Positions 3,668 through 10,472 of a DNA stretch of 34,557 nt are shown here, piece by piece. The number at the start of each line of letters is the position of its first letter. The first letter of the stretch is position 1. The notes beneath the pieces were generated by a model. It had not been told where the DNA came from, ran no database searches, and saw only the letters and a program-made list of their open reading frames with translations. The stretch spans positions 1-34,557 of the forward strand of contig CAKZOI010000040.1 of NCBI GenBank assembly GCA_937136395.1, given 5' to 3'. A program made the position numbers and the translations under genes. Origin of the DNA: an uncultured Opitutia bacterium. GTDB lineage: Bacteria > Verrucomicrobiota > Verrucomicrobiia > Opitutales > Coraliomargaritaceae.

Positions 3668-6346
3668 TTACTGGGCAGCGGGCTCTTCCACCACCTGAAT
3701 CGTATTAGCCCGATCAAGCGCCAAATTACGTCCCGGCAAGTTGAAGGCGACCATCTTACGATACACTCTGCGCGCCTCAACAAGCTCGTCAGACGCTTCC
3801 AAAATACGCCCTAAAGATAACAAAGCTCGGGACATCCAATAACGTCCCGAAGGTCCCAACTGAACCACCTGCTCACTATCTAGGAGAAAACTAGTAGAGA
3901 TTAACAAGAAGACCTCTTTCGCTTGCTCAGGTAGATCGCGCTTCATTAAGGCAAAGCCCCACTTGAAACCGACCTCCGCTTGAAAATCGACTGGCAAGTT
4001 TGGAATATCCATCAAGCGCTCGAGCGAGAGCACGACATCGCTCAACTGCTCATCATTATTCTTTGCCAGCGCCAACATACAATCCACACGCGACAACTCT
4101 GGGATATAGCGGCGCGGATGCGTCGGTGCTTCATTGATTAAATTCTCATAGATAATCTGTGCACCTGCAAAGTCGTTCATCTTACGCAGCAAATCTCCTT
4201 GCTTCAAGCGAGCCGAATAGACCAATGCATCACTGGAATAGTTCTCTGCTATTTGATTATGCAACAACACTGCTTGCTCGTAAAACTCTACACCCCGACG
4301 CTCGCAGTATATCGCCGCCTCAAAGAGCGCCTGCGGTGCGAGCACACTTTGCGGATAGGTCGTCGCTAGAGTCGTGAGGGTTTCCTGGGCTGCAGCAAAG
4401 TCATTGATCGATGCATGATAGTCCGCTTCAGTCAGGTAAGAACGTTGCGCTGCTGAACTGTCCGCATAGCCGACACGTAAACGCTCCAGCTCTTGCACAC
4501 CCTCATTGGCAGCTCCTAAGCGAATCAAAACCTGAGCCTTCAATAATAGAATTTCGGTGATTAAAAGCTTCGCCTCCGCTTCATCAAAAGTGCCTACGGG
4601 AAAGGACTCCACTCGTGCCAACAAATCAGTCACACGCTCAGACAGGCCTTCTTGATCGCCTGATAAAAAGGACAAATAGGCCTCCAGCCAACGCAAGCGA
4701 ATATCCAAGGCAGTCGGCACGGCGCTCGATTCGTCTCCTCCGAGCAATAAGCTCACACGCGCCAAGGCTACCTCCAGCTGGCCTTTCGATTTCAATGCAT
4801 GCACCACATTCCACTCGGCACGCCAACGATCCGAAATCGTCACTTTACCGCTAAAATCAGCCTCATCGATATGCTGCATGGCAGATTCAAGCTGCCCCGC
4901 ACGCACTTCCGCCGTAATCAATCGCAAAAACAAACCCTCATCCTCAGCGCCATCAATTGAGCGCGCATACGCGGCTTGATAGAAATCCACCGCGTTATTG
5001 TAGTCACGATTCAAAAAATAACAGTCACCAATCAAACGATTGAGCTTTGCACGCTCACTCATCCTCTCAGTCTGATCGCGTAATTGGATCAAGAAATCGG
5101 CCGCGGCACGATAGCGAGGCGGCGTGCGCTGCAGCGCGGCATATGCCAACAAACGATATACATTAGTGATTTGCTGCAAACCAGGGAACTGCTCCAACAA
5201 AAATGCCGCATCCTTCTCCGCGCTCGCTGTCTCCGCACGCGCCAACTCGAGGTTTGGACTGTCTCCCTCCAATGCTTTTTCAGCACGTGCCAAAGCAAGC
5301 TGACTGCGGATGTAATAAATCTCACCCAACAAGGGGTGTGGTGCTGCGAGTGCCACCATTTGATTCAAGAATTCCGTCAACCCACTGTTTGCCGCATTTG
5401 GAGCGCCTGCAAGTAGCTGCAAAGCCACACGCATCACATCCAGTGTTTTGCCATTCCTCACCAATTGCTGCAGCGCTTCAATACCACGCAAAGAATCCGA
5501 ACCCGCAATCACCGCTTTCAATAACAACAATTGCTCACGCTGCACAATCGTCAGCTCCTTATTATTCAGACGCTGCTCATCGATCACATTGATCGCCTCC
5601 TCGGCACGCCCCAAATTATACAAGATCACAGCATACTGACGCGCATAGGTATACGCCGCCGCCTGTGTCGCCAACTGCTCTAATTGAACCCGTATCTCTG
5701 CAGCAAGGGCCTCATCCGATGGAGTCTCCAACAACTTTTGGCGAAACACTAAACTGCTGAAAAATGCCCGCTGCTCCTGAGACTGGGCCGCCTCGACCGC
5801 TCTCTCGAAAGCGGGCATGATTCGTTCCGGCTGAGTCAAGAGCTCTGCCCGCAAGCCATTCGCAAGGTGCCACCAAGGCCGGTCAAAGGCATTCAATTGA
5901 ACCGGCTCCACTTGCGTCATCGCATTCAAAAACGCCTCACGCTCAAGCTGCCTACCGTCACCATACTCTGACACCGCAGAATATAAAAAATACTGGCTGT
6001 CGCGACCCTTCACACTCACCGTATCCAGCGCCTCACGCGCCGCCACATATCGCTGCTGCACAATCAATGCCGCCGCCAAGTGCACACGAATCGAATCAGC
6101 ACGATCCGGGCTCAGAGTTTGCGTCTTCAGTGCCGCTCGATAACCACTCTCCGCCAGGCCAACAAGCCCAGAGCGTAAGGCACGATCCGCGGCATCGACC
6201 CGCCAGTCCAACGCAATGACCTCCGCCGCCTCAGGCGGCAGCACTTGATCTGTAACCAAAGGTGCTTGTCCATTCAGCACCCCAGCCCCCGAACCAACAA
6301 GGCACAGAGCAAAACAACGAAACAAGATATAAAGGTTCAACCGCAT
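3668..6346 (-). CDS. Large secreted TPR protein, first gene of the ExbB/ExbD operon
   Basis: An 892-residue protein when started at the ATG at 6346. That start gives a clean signal peptide (M-R-L-N-L-Y-I-L-F-R-C-F-A-L-C-L-V-G-S-G-A-G); a longer frame to 6415 adds a non-signal-like extension and is less likely. The rest is almost all alpha-helical tetratricopeptide-like repeats, for example L-I-G-D-C-Y-F-L-N-R-D-Y-N-N-A-V-D-F-Y-Q-A-A-Y and the A-L-F-E-A-A-I-Y-C repeats. TPR proteins mediate protein-protein contacts. Sitting 22 bases upstream of exbB, it is probably a periplasmic partner of the proton-driven complex. No catalytic motif is visible. The gene is certain; the role is inferred from context. 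Confidence 0.88.
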   Translation of the reverse strand: MRLNLYILFRCFALCLVGSGAGVLNGQAPLVTDQVLPPEAAEVIALDWRVDAADRALRSGLVGLAESGYRAALKTQTLSPDRADSIRVHLAAALIVQQRYVAAREALDTVSVKGRDSQYFLYSAVSEYGDGRQLEREAFLNAMTQVEPVQLNAFDRPWWHLANGLRAELLTQPERIMPAFERAVEAAQSQEQRAFFSSLVFRQKLLETPSDEALAAEIRVQLEQLATQAAAYTYARQYAVILYNLGRAEEAINVIDEQRLNNKELTIVQREQLLLLKAVIAGSDSLRGIEALQQLVRNGKTLDVMRVALQLLAGAPNAANSGLTEFLNQMVALAAPHPLLGEIYYIRSQLALARAEKALEGDSPNLELARAETASAEKDAAFLLEQFPGLQQITNVYRLLAYAALQRTPPRYRAAADFLIQLRDQTERMSERAKLNRLIGDCYFLNRDYNNAVDFYQAAYARSIDGAEDEGLFLRLITAEVRAGQLESAMQHIDEADFSGKVTISDRWRAEWNVVHALKSKGQLEVALARVSLLLGGDESSAVPTALDIRLRWLEAYLSFLSGDQEGLSERVTDLLARVESFPVGTFDEAEAKLLITEILLLKAQVLIRLGAANEGVQELERLRVGYADSSAAQRSYLTEADYHASINDFAAAQETLTTLATTYPQSVLAPQALFEAAIYCERRGVEFYEQAVLLHNQIAENYSSDALVYSARLKQGDLLRKMNDFAGAQIIYENLINEAPTHPRRYIPELSRVDCMLALAKNNDEQLSDVVLSLERLMDIPNLPVDFQAEVGFKWGFALMKRDLPEQAKEVFLLISTSFLLDSEQVVQLGPSGRYWMSRALLSLGRILEASDELVEARRVYRKMVAFNLPGRNLALDRANTIQVVEEPAAQ

Positions 6347-6430
6347 GAGTATCGATACATGACAAGCGCTCTCCCCACAGGTTGCAAAGCGAATTTTACG
6401 CTTTTGATACAACACTGTCTTTCTCCCTGC

Positions 6431-6494
6431 AGCCGTTCAGTGTTTCAACCTTTCAACTTTTCAGAATTTCAGCTTTTCAGCTTTTCAGCTTTTC
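6431..6494. repeat. Pyrimidine-rich TTTCAGC-type degenerate tandem array (copy 1)
   Basis: Built from CTTTTCAG-like units; three nearly perfect units run from about 6470 to 6492, after more degenerate TTTCAACC and TTTCAACT units. It lies just past the 3' end of tRNA-Arg. A related array at 22735-22797 shares the order TTCAACCTTTCA then CTTTTCAG and ends in the same TTTCCAA. Confidence 0.7.
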
Positions 6495-6501
6495 CAAAAA
6501 G

Positions 6502-6576
6502 TGGTATCCCCGCTGGGAATCGAACCCAGATCGACTATTTAGGAAACAGTTGTTCTATCCGTTGAACTACAGGGAC
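6502..6576 (-). tRNA. tRNA-Arg (anticodon CCT)
   Basis: The minus strand folds as a full cloverleaf. The acceptor stem GTCCCTG pairs with CGGGGAT. The D-arm stem is GTTC/GAAC, and the anticodon stem ACTGT/ATAGT encloses the loop TTCCTAA. The T-arm is TGGG-TTCGATT-CCCA. Loop position 33 is U and the anticodon is CCT, which reads AGG (Arg). The terminal CCA is encoded at 6502-6504. Confidence 0.95.
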
Positions 6577-6606
6577 TGAGGCCAGTAAATAAGCGGATTA
6601 AAGAGG

Positions 6607-6635
6607 ATTATAGTGCCAAAATTTACACGCCAAAA
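6607..6635 (-). promoter_or_regulatory. Putative promoter of tRNA-Arg
   Basis: On the minus strand a perfect TATAAT (-10) occupies 6612-6607, about 30 bases upstream of the tRNA 5' end. A weak -35 candidate (TTTTGG) lies 17 bases further upstream at 6635-6630. The -10 match is exact; the -35 is poor. Confidence 0.5.
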
Positions 6636-7181
6636 TAGTTTAATAAAGACACATTTGGGAGGGTTTCGGACATAGTTTAGTCACAAATTAGTCACACTTT
6701 TCTACTTAGACAAGGGAGGGGGCGGTCACCAACTCCACTCGCCACTTTTATTATTAATAGATAAGCGACCGCCAAGAAAAATCTACCTTACACGAGGAAC
6801 CATCGTTTATGCATTGCTTAAAAAATGTGAATACATATACTATTAACTAAGATATGGAGAGCTACCAAGAGAGTCAGCAGACTGTCCTTTCGCTCCGATG
6901 GCGATTATCTCGCCGCTTGGCGGCAGGGGGAAGCCCCCACCTCCATGGGGGCGCGTGGCAGGATCGGAAGAAGAACTCCCCGTGGCAGGCAAGCGAGGCA
7001 AGCATGACGCAACGTAGACGGACTTAAACGGCACAGGCGGGATCGTATGCCTAATGCCAAGGGCGGGCGCGGGGCTACTAACTATAGGCTCCGAGCGAAG
7101 CGAGCTGACCGAAGGGAAGGAAGTGCCGTCCTGCGGAGTGTGTAGCGGATAGACAGGCATCCTGGACATGGGGAGTCGCAG

Positions 7182-7262
7182 TGCACAATCTCCGTTATGT
7201 CGCAATAAGTGAAACGTGAGTGATAACTAGCAACTCTATTCGGCATAATGCGAGATTGTGCG
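7182..7262. repeat. Long imperfect inverted repeat inside the gene-poor region
   Basis: The arm at 7182-7202 and the arm at 7241-7262 are complementary over about 20 positions with a few mismatches; both contain GCACAATCTC or its complement. The loop is about 38 bases. As RNA or single-stranded DNA this would form the strongest stem in the region. Confidence 0.65.
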
Positions 7263-7872
7263 CAAGACTCGGAACCATGTTTAGGATGACTGGCTAGGAG
7301 CGGAGCACGTAGCAGGGCTTTGGGGCTAGTGGAGAGTATCTGAATCAGATACAAACGCGGAAGCATTGCGGCAGGCGCAGACGGCATCGGGTCTCGTAGC
7401 GAAGCGGAGTGACTCGTGGGCGGCAAGCCGTTGGGTAGTGGCTAAGGTTGGAACTGAGTCTAGCAGTCGGTGAGGACTGGGAGCGTGCGAAGTGCTGTTG
7501 CTACGAAGTAGCTAAGGCACGTAGAGCGCGGACAGACCGCAAGCGTCTGCGGGTGGAGTCTCAGAGGCTAAGAAGTGCGCGTTAGCGTATTCCCCAAGCG
7601 AGCGAAGCGAGCGCAGGGGTAGGTAGTTATAGATTATTCATAATCTAAGTAGTTGGAGGCAGATGGTGAATGTGTATTGGCCTCCGCCACTTCCAACTCC
7701 ATCGCCTGATCCTTATTACTTATCCTTCTGCCTACACCATCTCCTACACCATCTCCACCTACTACTCCATTTCCTATGCCTCCTCTTAAACCGTCTCTGT
7801 CTCCTACACATATGCGAGGGTCGCGGACCAAAAGCTTACGCTTTCGGCTACAAATAAATCACCGGGAACCAC

Positions 7873-7904
7873 AAAAAAGGGCGCACCTTGCAGCACGCCC
7901 TTTG
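7873..7904 (-). terminator. Rho-independent terminator of glycogen phosphorylase
   Basis: Reading the minus strand, AAAGGGCG pairs with CGCCCTTT, with GTGC and GTGC-complement bases extending the stem; a run of six T follows directly. It starts about 20 bases after the glgP stop codon. Confidence 0.88.
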
Positions 7905-7925
7905 ATTCAAACTATATTGGATTGA

Positions 7926-10472
7926 TTACTTGCCTACCTTCACTGGCTTCAGCTTCCAGATGTGTTTAGCATATTCGCTGATCGTGCGATCAGATGAGAA
8001 CTTACCGACACGCGCGGTGTTCATGATCGCCATCTTCGCCCAGCGCTTTTTGTCACTGAATGCTTTATCCACTTCTTCTTGCACACGAATATAGGATGCG
8101 TAATCGGCTAGGCAGAGATATGGATCGCCACCTTCGAGCCAGCTGCTGCAGAGTGGCGCAAAGGCATCCTGCTCACCAGGTGTGAAATAATCGGAACGCA
8201 ACCAATCGATGACAGCTTTGAGCTCCCAATTACTATTGTAGTAATCGTATGGATTGTAACCCTTGGCTTTAATCTCTTCGACTTGCTCAACGGTGTTACC
8301 GAAGATGAAGATATTGTCGTCGCCGACTTCCTCACCGATTTCAACGTTGGCTCCGTCAAGTGTGCCGATCGTCAAGGCGCCATTGAGCGCGAGCTTCATG
8401 TTACCGGTGCCAGAAGCCTCCTTACCAGCAGTCGAAATTTGCTCAGAAAGGTCGGATGCTGGAATCATCTTCTCAGCCATCGTGATGCGATAGTTTTGCG
8501 GGAAGACGACCTTAAGTTTACCATTAATACGCGAGTCATTATTGATCTTTTCACCGACCTTGTTGATCGCGCGAATGATGTTCTTCGCTAAGGCATAGCC
8601 TGGTGCAGCCTTTGCGCCGAAAATGAATACGCGTGGATTCATTTCGTAGTCTGGGTCGTTTAAGAGACGACGATACAGCGTCAAGATGTGCAGTAAGTTC
8701 AAGTGTTGACGTTTGTATTCGTGAAGACGCTTGATTTGCACATCGAAGAGCGCATCTGGGCTGATTTCGGTGCCAGAATCCGCGAGCACGAAGTCCGCGA
8801 AAGCTTGCTTATTCGCACGCTTGATATCCATGAAGCGCTTTTGGAATTTCGCATCATCCGCAAGCTTCGAAATGCTTTGTAGCTTATCGAGATCCTTCGG
8901 CCAATCAGCGCCGACTTTTTCAGTAATCAATTCACTAAGGCCTGGATTACACGCAAGTAGCCAACGACGTGGTGTGATACCATTGGTCATGTTGATCAAC
9001 TTGTTCGGATACAACTCGTGGAAGGTGGCGAAGAGGTTCTTTTTCAGCAATTCAGTGTGCAATGCTGCAACACCATTGACCTTTGTCGAACCAACGACTG
9101 ATAGGTATGCCATACGAACCATCTTAGGATTACCTTCCTCGATGATAGAAAGCTCAGACTTCTTCGCATTGTCGCCCGGCCACTTTGCTTCAACTTCGTC
9201 TTGCAAGAAACGCGAGTTGATCTCGTAAATGATTTCCAAGTGGCGTGGAAGCACTTTTTCAAAGAGAGGCACGCTCCACTTCTCTAACGCCTCTGGCAGT
9301 AAGGTGTGATTCGTGTAGTTACACGCTTTGCGTGTAATTTCCCATGCAGCATCCCATTCGAGGCCGTTTTCGTCGATGAGTAAGCGCATCAATTCAGGAA
9401 GCGCGATGGCTGGGTGCGTATCATTGAGTTGCAATGCATTGTAGTCAGAAAACTCAGACCAACCGTCATGGCTTTTTTGAAAACGACGAATGATATCCTT
9501 AAGCGAGCAAGTCACGAAGAAATACTGTTGGATCAGGCGAAGCTCCTTACCATTTTCAGTAGAGTCATTCGGATAAAGCACTTTGGAGATGGTTTCACCC
9601 ATTGCCTTTTCACGGACCGCTTCTACGTAACCGCCATCATTGAACACATCTAAATCAAACTCCTTGGTAGACTTCGAATCCCAAAGGCGAAGGAAATTTA
9701 CTGTTTCACCACCGTATCCAACGATACCAATGTCGAAAGGAACCCCTTCAATGGTCTTATAATCGACCCACTTTGGCTTGAATACGCCTTTACTATCCAT
9801 CTGGTGTTCAACGCGACCAAAAAGCTGAACTTCTTGCGCATAGTTTGGGCGCATGACTTCCCAAGGGCAGCCCTTCTCCATCCATACGTCTGGATGCTCA
9901 ATCTGGTAACCATCCTTAAACTCTTGGCGGAAAAGGCCGAATTCGTAGTGAATTCCGTAACCGATTGCTGGCAGATCCAATGTTGCTAATGAATCTAGGA
10001 AACATGCAGCCAATCGACCGAGGCCACCATTACCGAGCCCCATATCTGCTTCTTCGTCTGCGATTACGTTGAAATCTTGACCGAGATCCGCGAGTGCATC
10101 GCGTGTTTGCTCAAACATCCCCGCATTATGGACATTATTTACCAGCAAACGGCCCATCAAATACTCCAAGCTCAAGTAGTATGCACGACGCACCTTCTTT
10201 TCACTATGCACTTTTTGCGTCTTCATGAAACGATCTAGAAGGCGGTCACGCACTGCGTAACAGGTCGCCGTCCACCATTCATCCTTGGTCGCACTTTCTG
10301 GGTGACGCGCTAAGGTGTAGCGCAAGTGGTTTAAAATCGAGATTTTCATCGATTCTTTTGTCGAATCGACTTCAAAGCGAAAGGATTTCGCTGCGCTCTT
10401 CGAAGCAGGTGCTTTCTTCGAAGCGGTCTTCTTAGCTGCTGTTTTCTTAGGCTTAGTCGCTGTTTGTGTCAT
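7926..10472 (-). CDS. glgP: Glycogen/maltodextrin phosphorylase
   Basis: An 848-residue family GT35 phosphorylase that releases glucose-1-phosphate from alpha-1,4-glucans using pyridoxal phosphate. The PLP site [12 protein letters not shown] places the lysine at about residue 693. Other family segments are [14 protein letters not shown] near 145, Q-L-N-D-T-H-P-A near 345 and [10 protein letters not shown] near 490. The first 30 residues are an unusual Lys/Ala/Ser/Thr-rich tail ([10 protein letters not shown] type) that is absent from most phosphorylases; such tails bind nucleic acid or polyanions in other proteins, but its role here is unknown. It is monocistronic: a terminator follows and 210 bases separate it from the gene upstream. 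Confidence 0.96.

Follow-up and report, generated by a model that had tools for sequence, protein, structure and literature searches.

A probable solitary copy of a giant structured RNA family of phage-like integrative elements in an Opitutia genome

The intergenic stretch between glgP and tRNA-Arg

The window is the whole stretch of DNA that was analysed, 34,557 nucleotides of contig CAKZOI010000040.1 from an uncultured Opitutia bacterium. Within it, positions 6840-7620 had been described in an initial annotation as hairpin-dense, GC-rich sequence without a gene, located between a strong glgP terminator and tRNA-Arg. Both flanking features were present, at distances that are refined in Table 1, and the description of the stretch as lacking a protein-like gene was borne out, as the longest ORFs of the element were 120 and 114 aa, both antisense and neither convincing. 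Similarity to the family of elements described below spans ~6914 to 7620.

The heptamer GCGAAGC is located at 7095, 7399 and 7602 and CTACGAAGTAG at 7501, as had been annotated. Three copies of GCGAAGC in 781 nt compare with 0.21 expected (P ~0.0015, 2000 dinucleotide shuffles). The accompanying claim of many small perfect hairpins held for those with a stem of 5 and a loop of 3-6 (nine vs 2.9 expected, a number reached in 0/500 shuffles) but not for those with a stem of 4 and a loop of 3-4, which were within chance (nine vs 5.9 expected, P 0.15). The imperfect inverted repeat was also recovered, with arms at ~7181-7202 and 7241-7263. A gap-free, exact-seed repeat finder listed no inverted repeat in 6700-8000, because the arms contain bulges and mismatches and this finder extends its seeds ungapped. 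The folding energy of 6840-7620 gave a z of -4.6 on the + strand and -1.5 on the - strand (60 shuffles each), and that of the hairpin at 7170-7275 gave -6.3 on + and -3.1 on -.

Table 1. Features of the window copy and its surroundings, and location of the anti-phage cargo of carriers
Feature	Position	Strand	Remarks
glgP end	7926
glgP terminator	7876-7903		~255 bases beyond the element
tRNA-Arg(CCT)	6502-6576		264 bases before 6840, ~340 bases from the element copy
Conserved core	6914..7274	+	profile positions 58-416 of ~417; leader and 5' 57 positions missing
Long-range closing helix	6924-6927 with 7276-7279	+	98.2% of its cells pair in A3 (RNAalifold)
Helix 7, GC-rich hairpin GCCCCC...GGGGGC	6933..6952	+	100% of cells paired
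Junction helix 7087-7091/7123-7127 around two mini-hairpins	7087..7127	+
GAGCGAAGCGAG: tandem G-A, 2 bp and GNA-triloop mini-hairpin	7093..7104	+	contains GCGAAGC at 7095
Helix 12, second tandem G-A/GNA mini-hairpin CTGACCGAAGGGAAG	7105..7119	+
Main hairpin (20-bp inverted repeat of the initial annotation)	7181..7263	+	covariation in A2
Variable 3' domain	7275..7575	+	patchy similarity only; shorter than in mobile-element copies
7-bp hairpin GTATCTG-AAT-CAGATAC in 3' domain	7336..7352	+	A4, eight copies
Conserved 3' end, terminal hairpin CCCC-AAGCGAGCGAAGCGAGCGCA-GGGG	7576..7620	+	GCGAAGC at 7602, third tandem G-A motif at 7600
Anti-phage cargo	L160:594-10809 and L162:2428-11756

A family of elements beside small-terminase genes

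A family of structured non-coding elements of ~0.7-1.8 kb was found at 21 distinct places, three in the genome of the window, three in other genomes of the same family, ten on IMG/VR contigs and five, as diverged copies, in another family. The initial annotation had named a lack of homologous sequence together with a missing transcript as counting against its proposal; homologues were found in the window's own genome, in family genomes and in IMG/VR. Nineteen of the 21 elements are located on the 5' side of the small-terminase (TerS) gene of a phage-like element; the window copy is not. The two further copies in the same genome are on contigs C62 and C21, and a DNA search of 43 family genomes added copies in G033, G017 and G032, the covariance model returning the same four genomes, the window's own included. 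Seven of the 11 DNA-matched family genomes were not counted, their match being only to a GAAAGTGAAAG-like simple repeat inside the C21 element. L046 (a near-duplicate of L045) and L118 (the same record as L032) were kept outside the alignments and the 21, while L039 and L041 were counted separately although they are 96.5% identical over the element. A fragment in G033:C7, comprising the 3' end only, is also not among the 21. This locus (L034:5028-6561) represents a degraded carrier with the element 3' end, an HTH gene and part of an integrase, this remnant being at 6950-7597, beside a tRNA-Asp at 7657.

With the C21 TerS as bait, 14 IMG/VR loci were recovered at 57-81% TerS identity, among 80 listed of 90 matches. 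Thirteen of these loci have a contig that extends far enough upstream of TerS, and 11 carry the element there, whereas it was not found in L050 and L051; L043 begins within TerS, so that its upstream side lies outside its contig. Similarity to the element by blastn was absent in the other 66 loci among the 80 listed of 90. When 372 genomes of the order were searched with a TerS profile, 12 TerS loci were located in 10 genomes, and eight of these loci have the element, as three near and five diverged copies (G548, G256, two in G175, G114). The diverged copies all come from another family of the order and are ~60% identical to the C21 core (blastn E 3e-8 to 3e-5). All five have the string AAAACGCGCGT beside TerS, and UUAUGUC/GGCAUAA is exact in four of them, G256 having GGUAUAA. 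Only one (G548) was recognised by the nhmmer core profile; all five matched the covariance model with rough E-values of 0.0002-0.002, and in diverged copies the model also matched the reverse strand of the palindrome (E 0.003-0.02). No element was detected in the 4-kb stretches of the other four order TerS loci (G151, G430, G017:C93 and G444), and the G430 stretch has the leader string despite this.

Outside the family, the covariance model yielded no convincing hit among 286 genomes of the class, 372 of the order and 387 of the phylum, which are overlapping sets scanned with strict filters that missed the five diverged copies. In the class search with model R1, L128 (27.6 bits), whose listed ORFs include no terminase or phage gene, was regarded as a chance palindrome, and L129 also scored, at 23.1 bits. 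Six viral contigs (L138-L143) obtained with the pattern GCTAGGAATACGACGC were chance matches, the best R1 hit in them spanning 21 bases and scoring 10 bits. Two further sequence patterns returned only contigs already known, and DNA searches of the phage and plasmid collections gave no match.

The mobile-element copies sit between an excisionase-like HTH gene (phrog_66) and TerS, behind a conserved leader, and the element strand was opposite to both genes in all 10 element-bearing loci in which both were found by tblastn. In C62, C21 and G33C9 the element occupies the space between its flanking genes without overlap. The leader, between TerS and the element, is common to 12 of the 13 aligned copies (L040 was left out of this alignment) and contains TTCACT, which recurs more loosely 10 bases on as a TTNACT-like sequence, and two boxes, one GATATAGGCGCGG-like and one AAAAACGCGCGTA-like; the L049 leader keeps the later boxes. 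The leader probably holds the promoter together with the RNA 5' end, and could also serve the divergent TerS operon. Consensus scans placed no promoters or terminators at the element ends in more than chance numbers. In the window, a single promoter-like site was called, within the main hairpin (expected 1.0), and the sole terminator was the glgP one. In C21 there was no promoter-like site, and none of four terminator-like sites (expected 1.8, sd 1.7) was at the element 3' end. In L044 ~2.5 kb with other ORFs (L044:3100-5900) separates leader and core, and the RNA would therefore be interrupted there; in L040 ~0.3 kb lies between the leader beside TerS and the core. BspA-type leucine-rich-repeat genes, called by Pfam for L037 and by a similar start only for L034, were observed between the element 3' end and the HTH gene (L037:1648-2940, L034:5598-6275).

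The C21 carrier is prophage-like (G000:C21 ~138,390-158,800; L035, L010, L036) and encodes an integrase, a major head protein, a protease, a Mu-type portal and both terminase subunits, together with a family-A DNA polymerase, AAA/primase proteins and an exonuclease. One tRNA-Leu adjoins the integrase (L035), and an attR was not found for this element. No tail gene was detected between capsid and integrase among the ORFs searched in C21 and in the 33.5-kb L048 contig (L161:1569-2228 excluded). Anti-phage systems adjoin the repressor in the two contigs inspected (L048, L041; L160-L163), one carrier having type I restriction-modification with a PtuA-like ATPase, DUF3800 and PDC-S02 and the other HmaA/HmaB/HmaC. 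The carriers possibly represent a new kind of seemingly tail-less, capsid-coding satellite in Opitutia. The C21 carrier also encodes, at L036:6909-9032, a 707-aa protein whose QueC-like domain (Pfam QueC, phrog_1550) points to a possible part in DNA modification or defence. The G032:C304 copy (L033) has no TerS match in 8 kb and a D5-type primase/helicase gene (Pfam D5_N) nearby, and therefore the RNA may ride other mobile elements too.

Conserved fold of the element

An alignment of homologues had been proposed with the initial annotation as a check for covariation. Judged against shuffled and slid controls, the outcome was strongly positive; the structures were derived from the same alignments used for counting, which favours them. 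In the main hairpin (alignment A2, 15 copies) 95.6% of cells were paired, with both-side change at 10 of 26 pairs (31 cells), the pairs having been named by the analyst after inspection of the columns. All five measures lay beyond every one of 500 shuffles, and the pairing was lost when the partner was slid. The window row of A2 is misaligned by one base in a small apical stem and was scored as unpaired there. For the rest of the core (A3, 14 copies) RNAalifold supplied 42 pairs, in which 97.5% of cells were paired, with both-side change at 15 of 42 pairs (40 cells), and again 0/500 shuffles matched on all five measures. The partial G32 copy is included in A2 and left out of A3; L049 was omitted from both because a different long hairpin, read by eye, replaces its main hairpin at the same position. 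The hairpin at 7336-7352 (A4), in eight copies picked by a pattern that already required four of its seven pairs, had 98.2% of cells paired and both-side change in nine cells; its covariation was weaker, two of the five measures lying within the shuffles (38/500 and 220/500).

Among the non-Watson-Crick cells of the main hairpin, read on the + strand, there were 31 G-U, four A-C and 13 other mismatches. The excess of G-U over A-C identifies the + strand as the folded strand. RNAalifold of the core gave -195.7 on + and -160.2 on -, and the + strand is purine-rich (G 0.41 / C 0.23 in C62 and C21), as folded RNA usually is.

Compensatory change was also evident in single helices. Both sides had changed at one of the four pairs of the closing helix 6924-6927/7276-7279 and, over 14 copies, at three of the five pairs of the junction helix 7087..7127; at one pair of helix 7 G-C was swapped for C-G in 5/14 copies. 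In helix 12 CC-GNA-GG alternates with GC-GNA-GC, the outer pair being changed on both sides in 5/14 copies, and pairs outside the G-A step covary too (six and three copies). GAGCGAAGCGAG and GACCGAAGGGAG are variants of one motif, in which a tandem G-A step is followed by two base pairs and a GNA triloop; sheared G-A pairs and GNA loops are stable. This motif occurs at three sites in the window copy (7093, 7107 and 7600) vs 0.01 expected and 0-5 times in each of nine other copies; the - strands of these ten copies have none. The annotated GCGAAGC at 7095 and 7602 belong to motif sites, and the one at 7399 does not. GNA triloops in general were enriched only in some copies (L038, L039 and L047, uncorrected) and not in the window copy.

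A profile of ~417 positions matched all 17 copies scored, G32 and L049 in part only; the profile was iterated over the same copies, so these matches show consistency. The window core matched the family profile with an nhmmer E of 2.1e-59 (the iterated set includes the window copy), and plain blastn gave 4e-22 against C62 and 3e-11 against C21. Covariance model R1, which was built with the window copy included, scored 98.2 bits at 7158-7282. The 5' core is the better conserved region and the 3' part varies strongly between copies. In L032 (G17), L039 and L041 the 3' part gave repeated ~80-90-base blastn matches, which suggests an internal tandem repeat in their variable 3' domain. The 3' end at 7576-7620 is 91% identical to G000:C62 1558-1602 and 93% identical to the C21 copy over 28 bases.

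Descent from a decayed protein gene, which the initial annotation had named as a result that would speak against it, is clearly contradicted by the gap lengths and stops. Of 1145 internal pairwise gap lengths in the core alignment (counted over copy pairs, which are not independent events), 143 were divisible by 3; 14 copies give 84 frames, 83 of them with stops, and reading frames were not conserved. None of 4227 Rfam families, including GOLLD and ROOL, matched in the stretches scanned with cmscan, which were window 6000-8500 (E<=5), L009 (gathering score), L047 (E<=1) and L010 (once with each of the latter two cut-offs). Besides tRNA, the relaxed scan gave five hits, all far below gathering scores. 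Introns, OMEGA/HEARO and riboswitches were judged through these Rfam scans alone. Comparison of the copies thus demonstrates, on the + strand, a conserved, covarying, non-coding fold beside packaging genes of phage-like elements.

Interpretation and known giant RNAs

The window stretch is, with a probability of roughly 75%, a solitary, shortened chromosomal copy of a new giant structured RNA family of phage-like integrative elements in Opitutia. That the family consists of structured RNA of mobile-element origin is highly probable, and two readings offered by the initial annotation, a large structured noncoding RNA and a remnant of a mobile element, are supported together. The element is probably transcribed independently; the RNA would be produced from a promoter in the leader upon induction of the mobile element. 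More tentatively, and by analogy, it may act as a structural machine or scaffold in the manner of GOLLD and ROOL, perhaps as a homo-oligomer. The window copy would then be a stranded one, which left its element recently or was kept for its fold.

Compatible with this reading is the proposal that the window copy is a dead, unexpressed remnant and that only the mobile-element copies matter, for which the chances appear even. Missing from the window copy, which begins inside the core at 6914, are the leader, the start of the core and a large share of the 3' domain; the 3' hairpin of the family is retained. Eight mobile-element proteins gave no match in the window. The element was also not found behind glgP in ~3-kb stretches of seven relatives. 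The window flanks match there only the glgP end (6/7) and, in G009, the tRNA, and therefore absence is seen and insertion is not thereby shown; short repeats of the tRNA-Arg ends were not found near the element. Against a dead remnant, the window copy, compared in turn with 13 other copies, keeps 43-47 of 45-49 standard pairs although 15-27 changes fall in paired columns. An equal number of random changes leaves 29-38 pairs on average and never reached the observed value (2000 trials each). Pair retention, which is silent on whether selection preceded or followed exit from the mobile element, is consistent with a copy that was either recently stranded or still under constraint.

The structured RNA has to be weighed against a DNA element, a pac/cos site or replication origin of which one strand folds when single-stranded and is bound by terminase or replication proteins. 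Such a site would suit a position with the replication module on one side and the terminase genes on the other; packaging sites and replication origins commonly have inverted repeats, and the GCGAAGC mini-hairpin is stable as DNA. We nevertheless regard it as improbable in view of a structure of several covarying helices, in which one strand shows G-U exchanges and few A-C ones, of the purine-rich composition of that strand, and of L049, which has swapped its main hairpin for another long hairpin in the same place. The folded single-stranded DNA suggested at the outset is likewise less economical than a structured RNA. As the element adjoins TerS, a DNA role in packaging or replication could add to its conservation.

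Slightly less probable again is a long antisense or regulatory RNA that pairs with the terminase or HTH/replication operon and in which the fold is secondary. The strand opposite to TerS and HTH in 10/10 loci and the closeness of the leader to the TerS 5' end would accord with such a role, but the element does not overlap its neighbours in C62, C21 and G33C9 and the paired structure is what is conserved. A decayed protein gene or GC-rich low-complexity repeat, to which the long antisense ORFs of several copies and the recurrence of GAGCGAAGCGAG-like units might point, is very improbable given the gap lengths, stops and compensatory changes. The preferred reading of a structured RNA can be extended to a scenario that we hold to be unlikely. 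Mobile elements that are seemingly tail-less and can carry anti-phage defence would depend on a giant RNA of their own (<= ~1.8 kb), encoded against the terminase and forming an RNA-only particle or a packaging scaffold, and the host would keep an orphan copy, which might be directed at the element as a decoy or interference RNA.

Among satellites, the carriers resemble the cf-PICIs, which are capsid-forming phage satellites (PMC10690885), in having an integrase, major head protein, protease, portal and both terminase subunits. They differ in also having DNA polymerase and primase genes, the comparison being made by description and on genes only. Noncoding RNAs are the most abundant transcripts of phage ICP1 (~800 nt) and of PLE satellites (IIR) (PMC7567579). 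The element is similar to these as a gene-less stretch of ~1 kb in a phage, or as the noncoding RNA of a phage satellite; unlike it, they were found by RNA-seq, and the parts of PMC7567579 drawn on here describe no conserved fold. With respect to ICP1-type likeness, blastn alone gave no match of the element in the phage collection. In openly licensed literature, no title or abstract start among the matches listed dealt with such an RNA in Opitutia or Verrucomicrobiota.

The element is like ROOL in being a large multi-helix RNA of mobile elements and unlike it in having no Rfam match in the scanned stretches and a different position. The 520-nt RNA of Lactobacillus salivarius is presumably ROOL. 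The full copies in C62, C21 and G33C9 are, at ~1.4-1.8 kb, larger than this RNA, which exceeds 16S rRNA in abundance (PMC5643018), and the upper size of ~1.8 kb is above the GOLLD and ROOL sizes in the portions of PMC12286853 and PMC5643018 used here. GOLLD is a large RNA (many >800 nt) of ornate structure and unknown function in prophages and phages, with one conserved and one variable region, and forms a 14-mer RNA nanocage (PMC12286853). The element shares with it the large size, carriage by phages and the division into a conserved and a variable region. It differs in its hosts, in having no Rfam match in the scanned stretches and in that its 5' core is the better conserved part, whereas the 3' region is the conserved one in GOLLD (PMC12286853). 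GOLLD often, not obligatorily, lies near tRNA islands, whereas no tRNA island was present beside the copies scanned. According to ARAGORN, nine IMG/VR loci as well as L031, L033, L036 and L037 are free of tRNAs, and L034, a 3' fragment, has three.

The element would be a further case of a giant RNA carried by mobile elements, and going by Rfam it is unrelated to the ones already described. Where GC-rich sequence without a gene separates housekeeping genes, the gap can be an identifiable relic of such an element, and the place beside packaging genes leads to a directly testable hypothesis. GOLLD and ROOL are both phage-borne and assemble into cages made of RNA alone, whose use is unknown (PMC12286853). 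A family with a similar habit, unmatched in Rfam, in another phylum, at a fixed place by the terminase, with a conserved leader and in at least two families of an order, would offer an independent comparison, which can tell which features of such RNAs matter: size, oligomerisation or phage timing.
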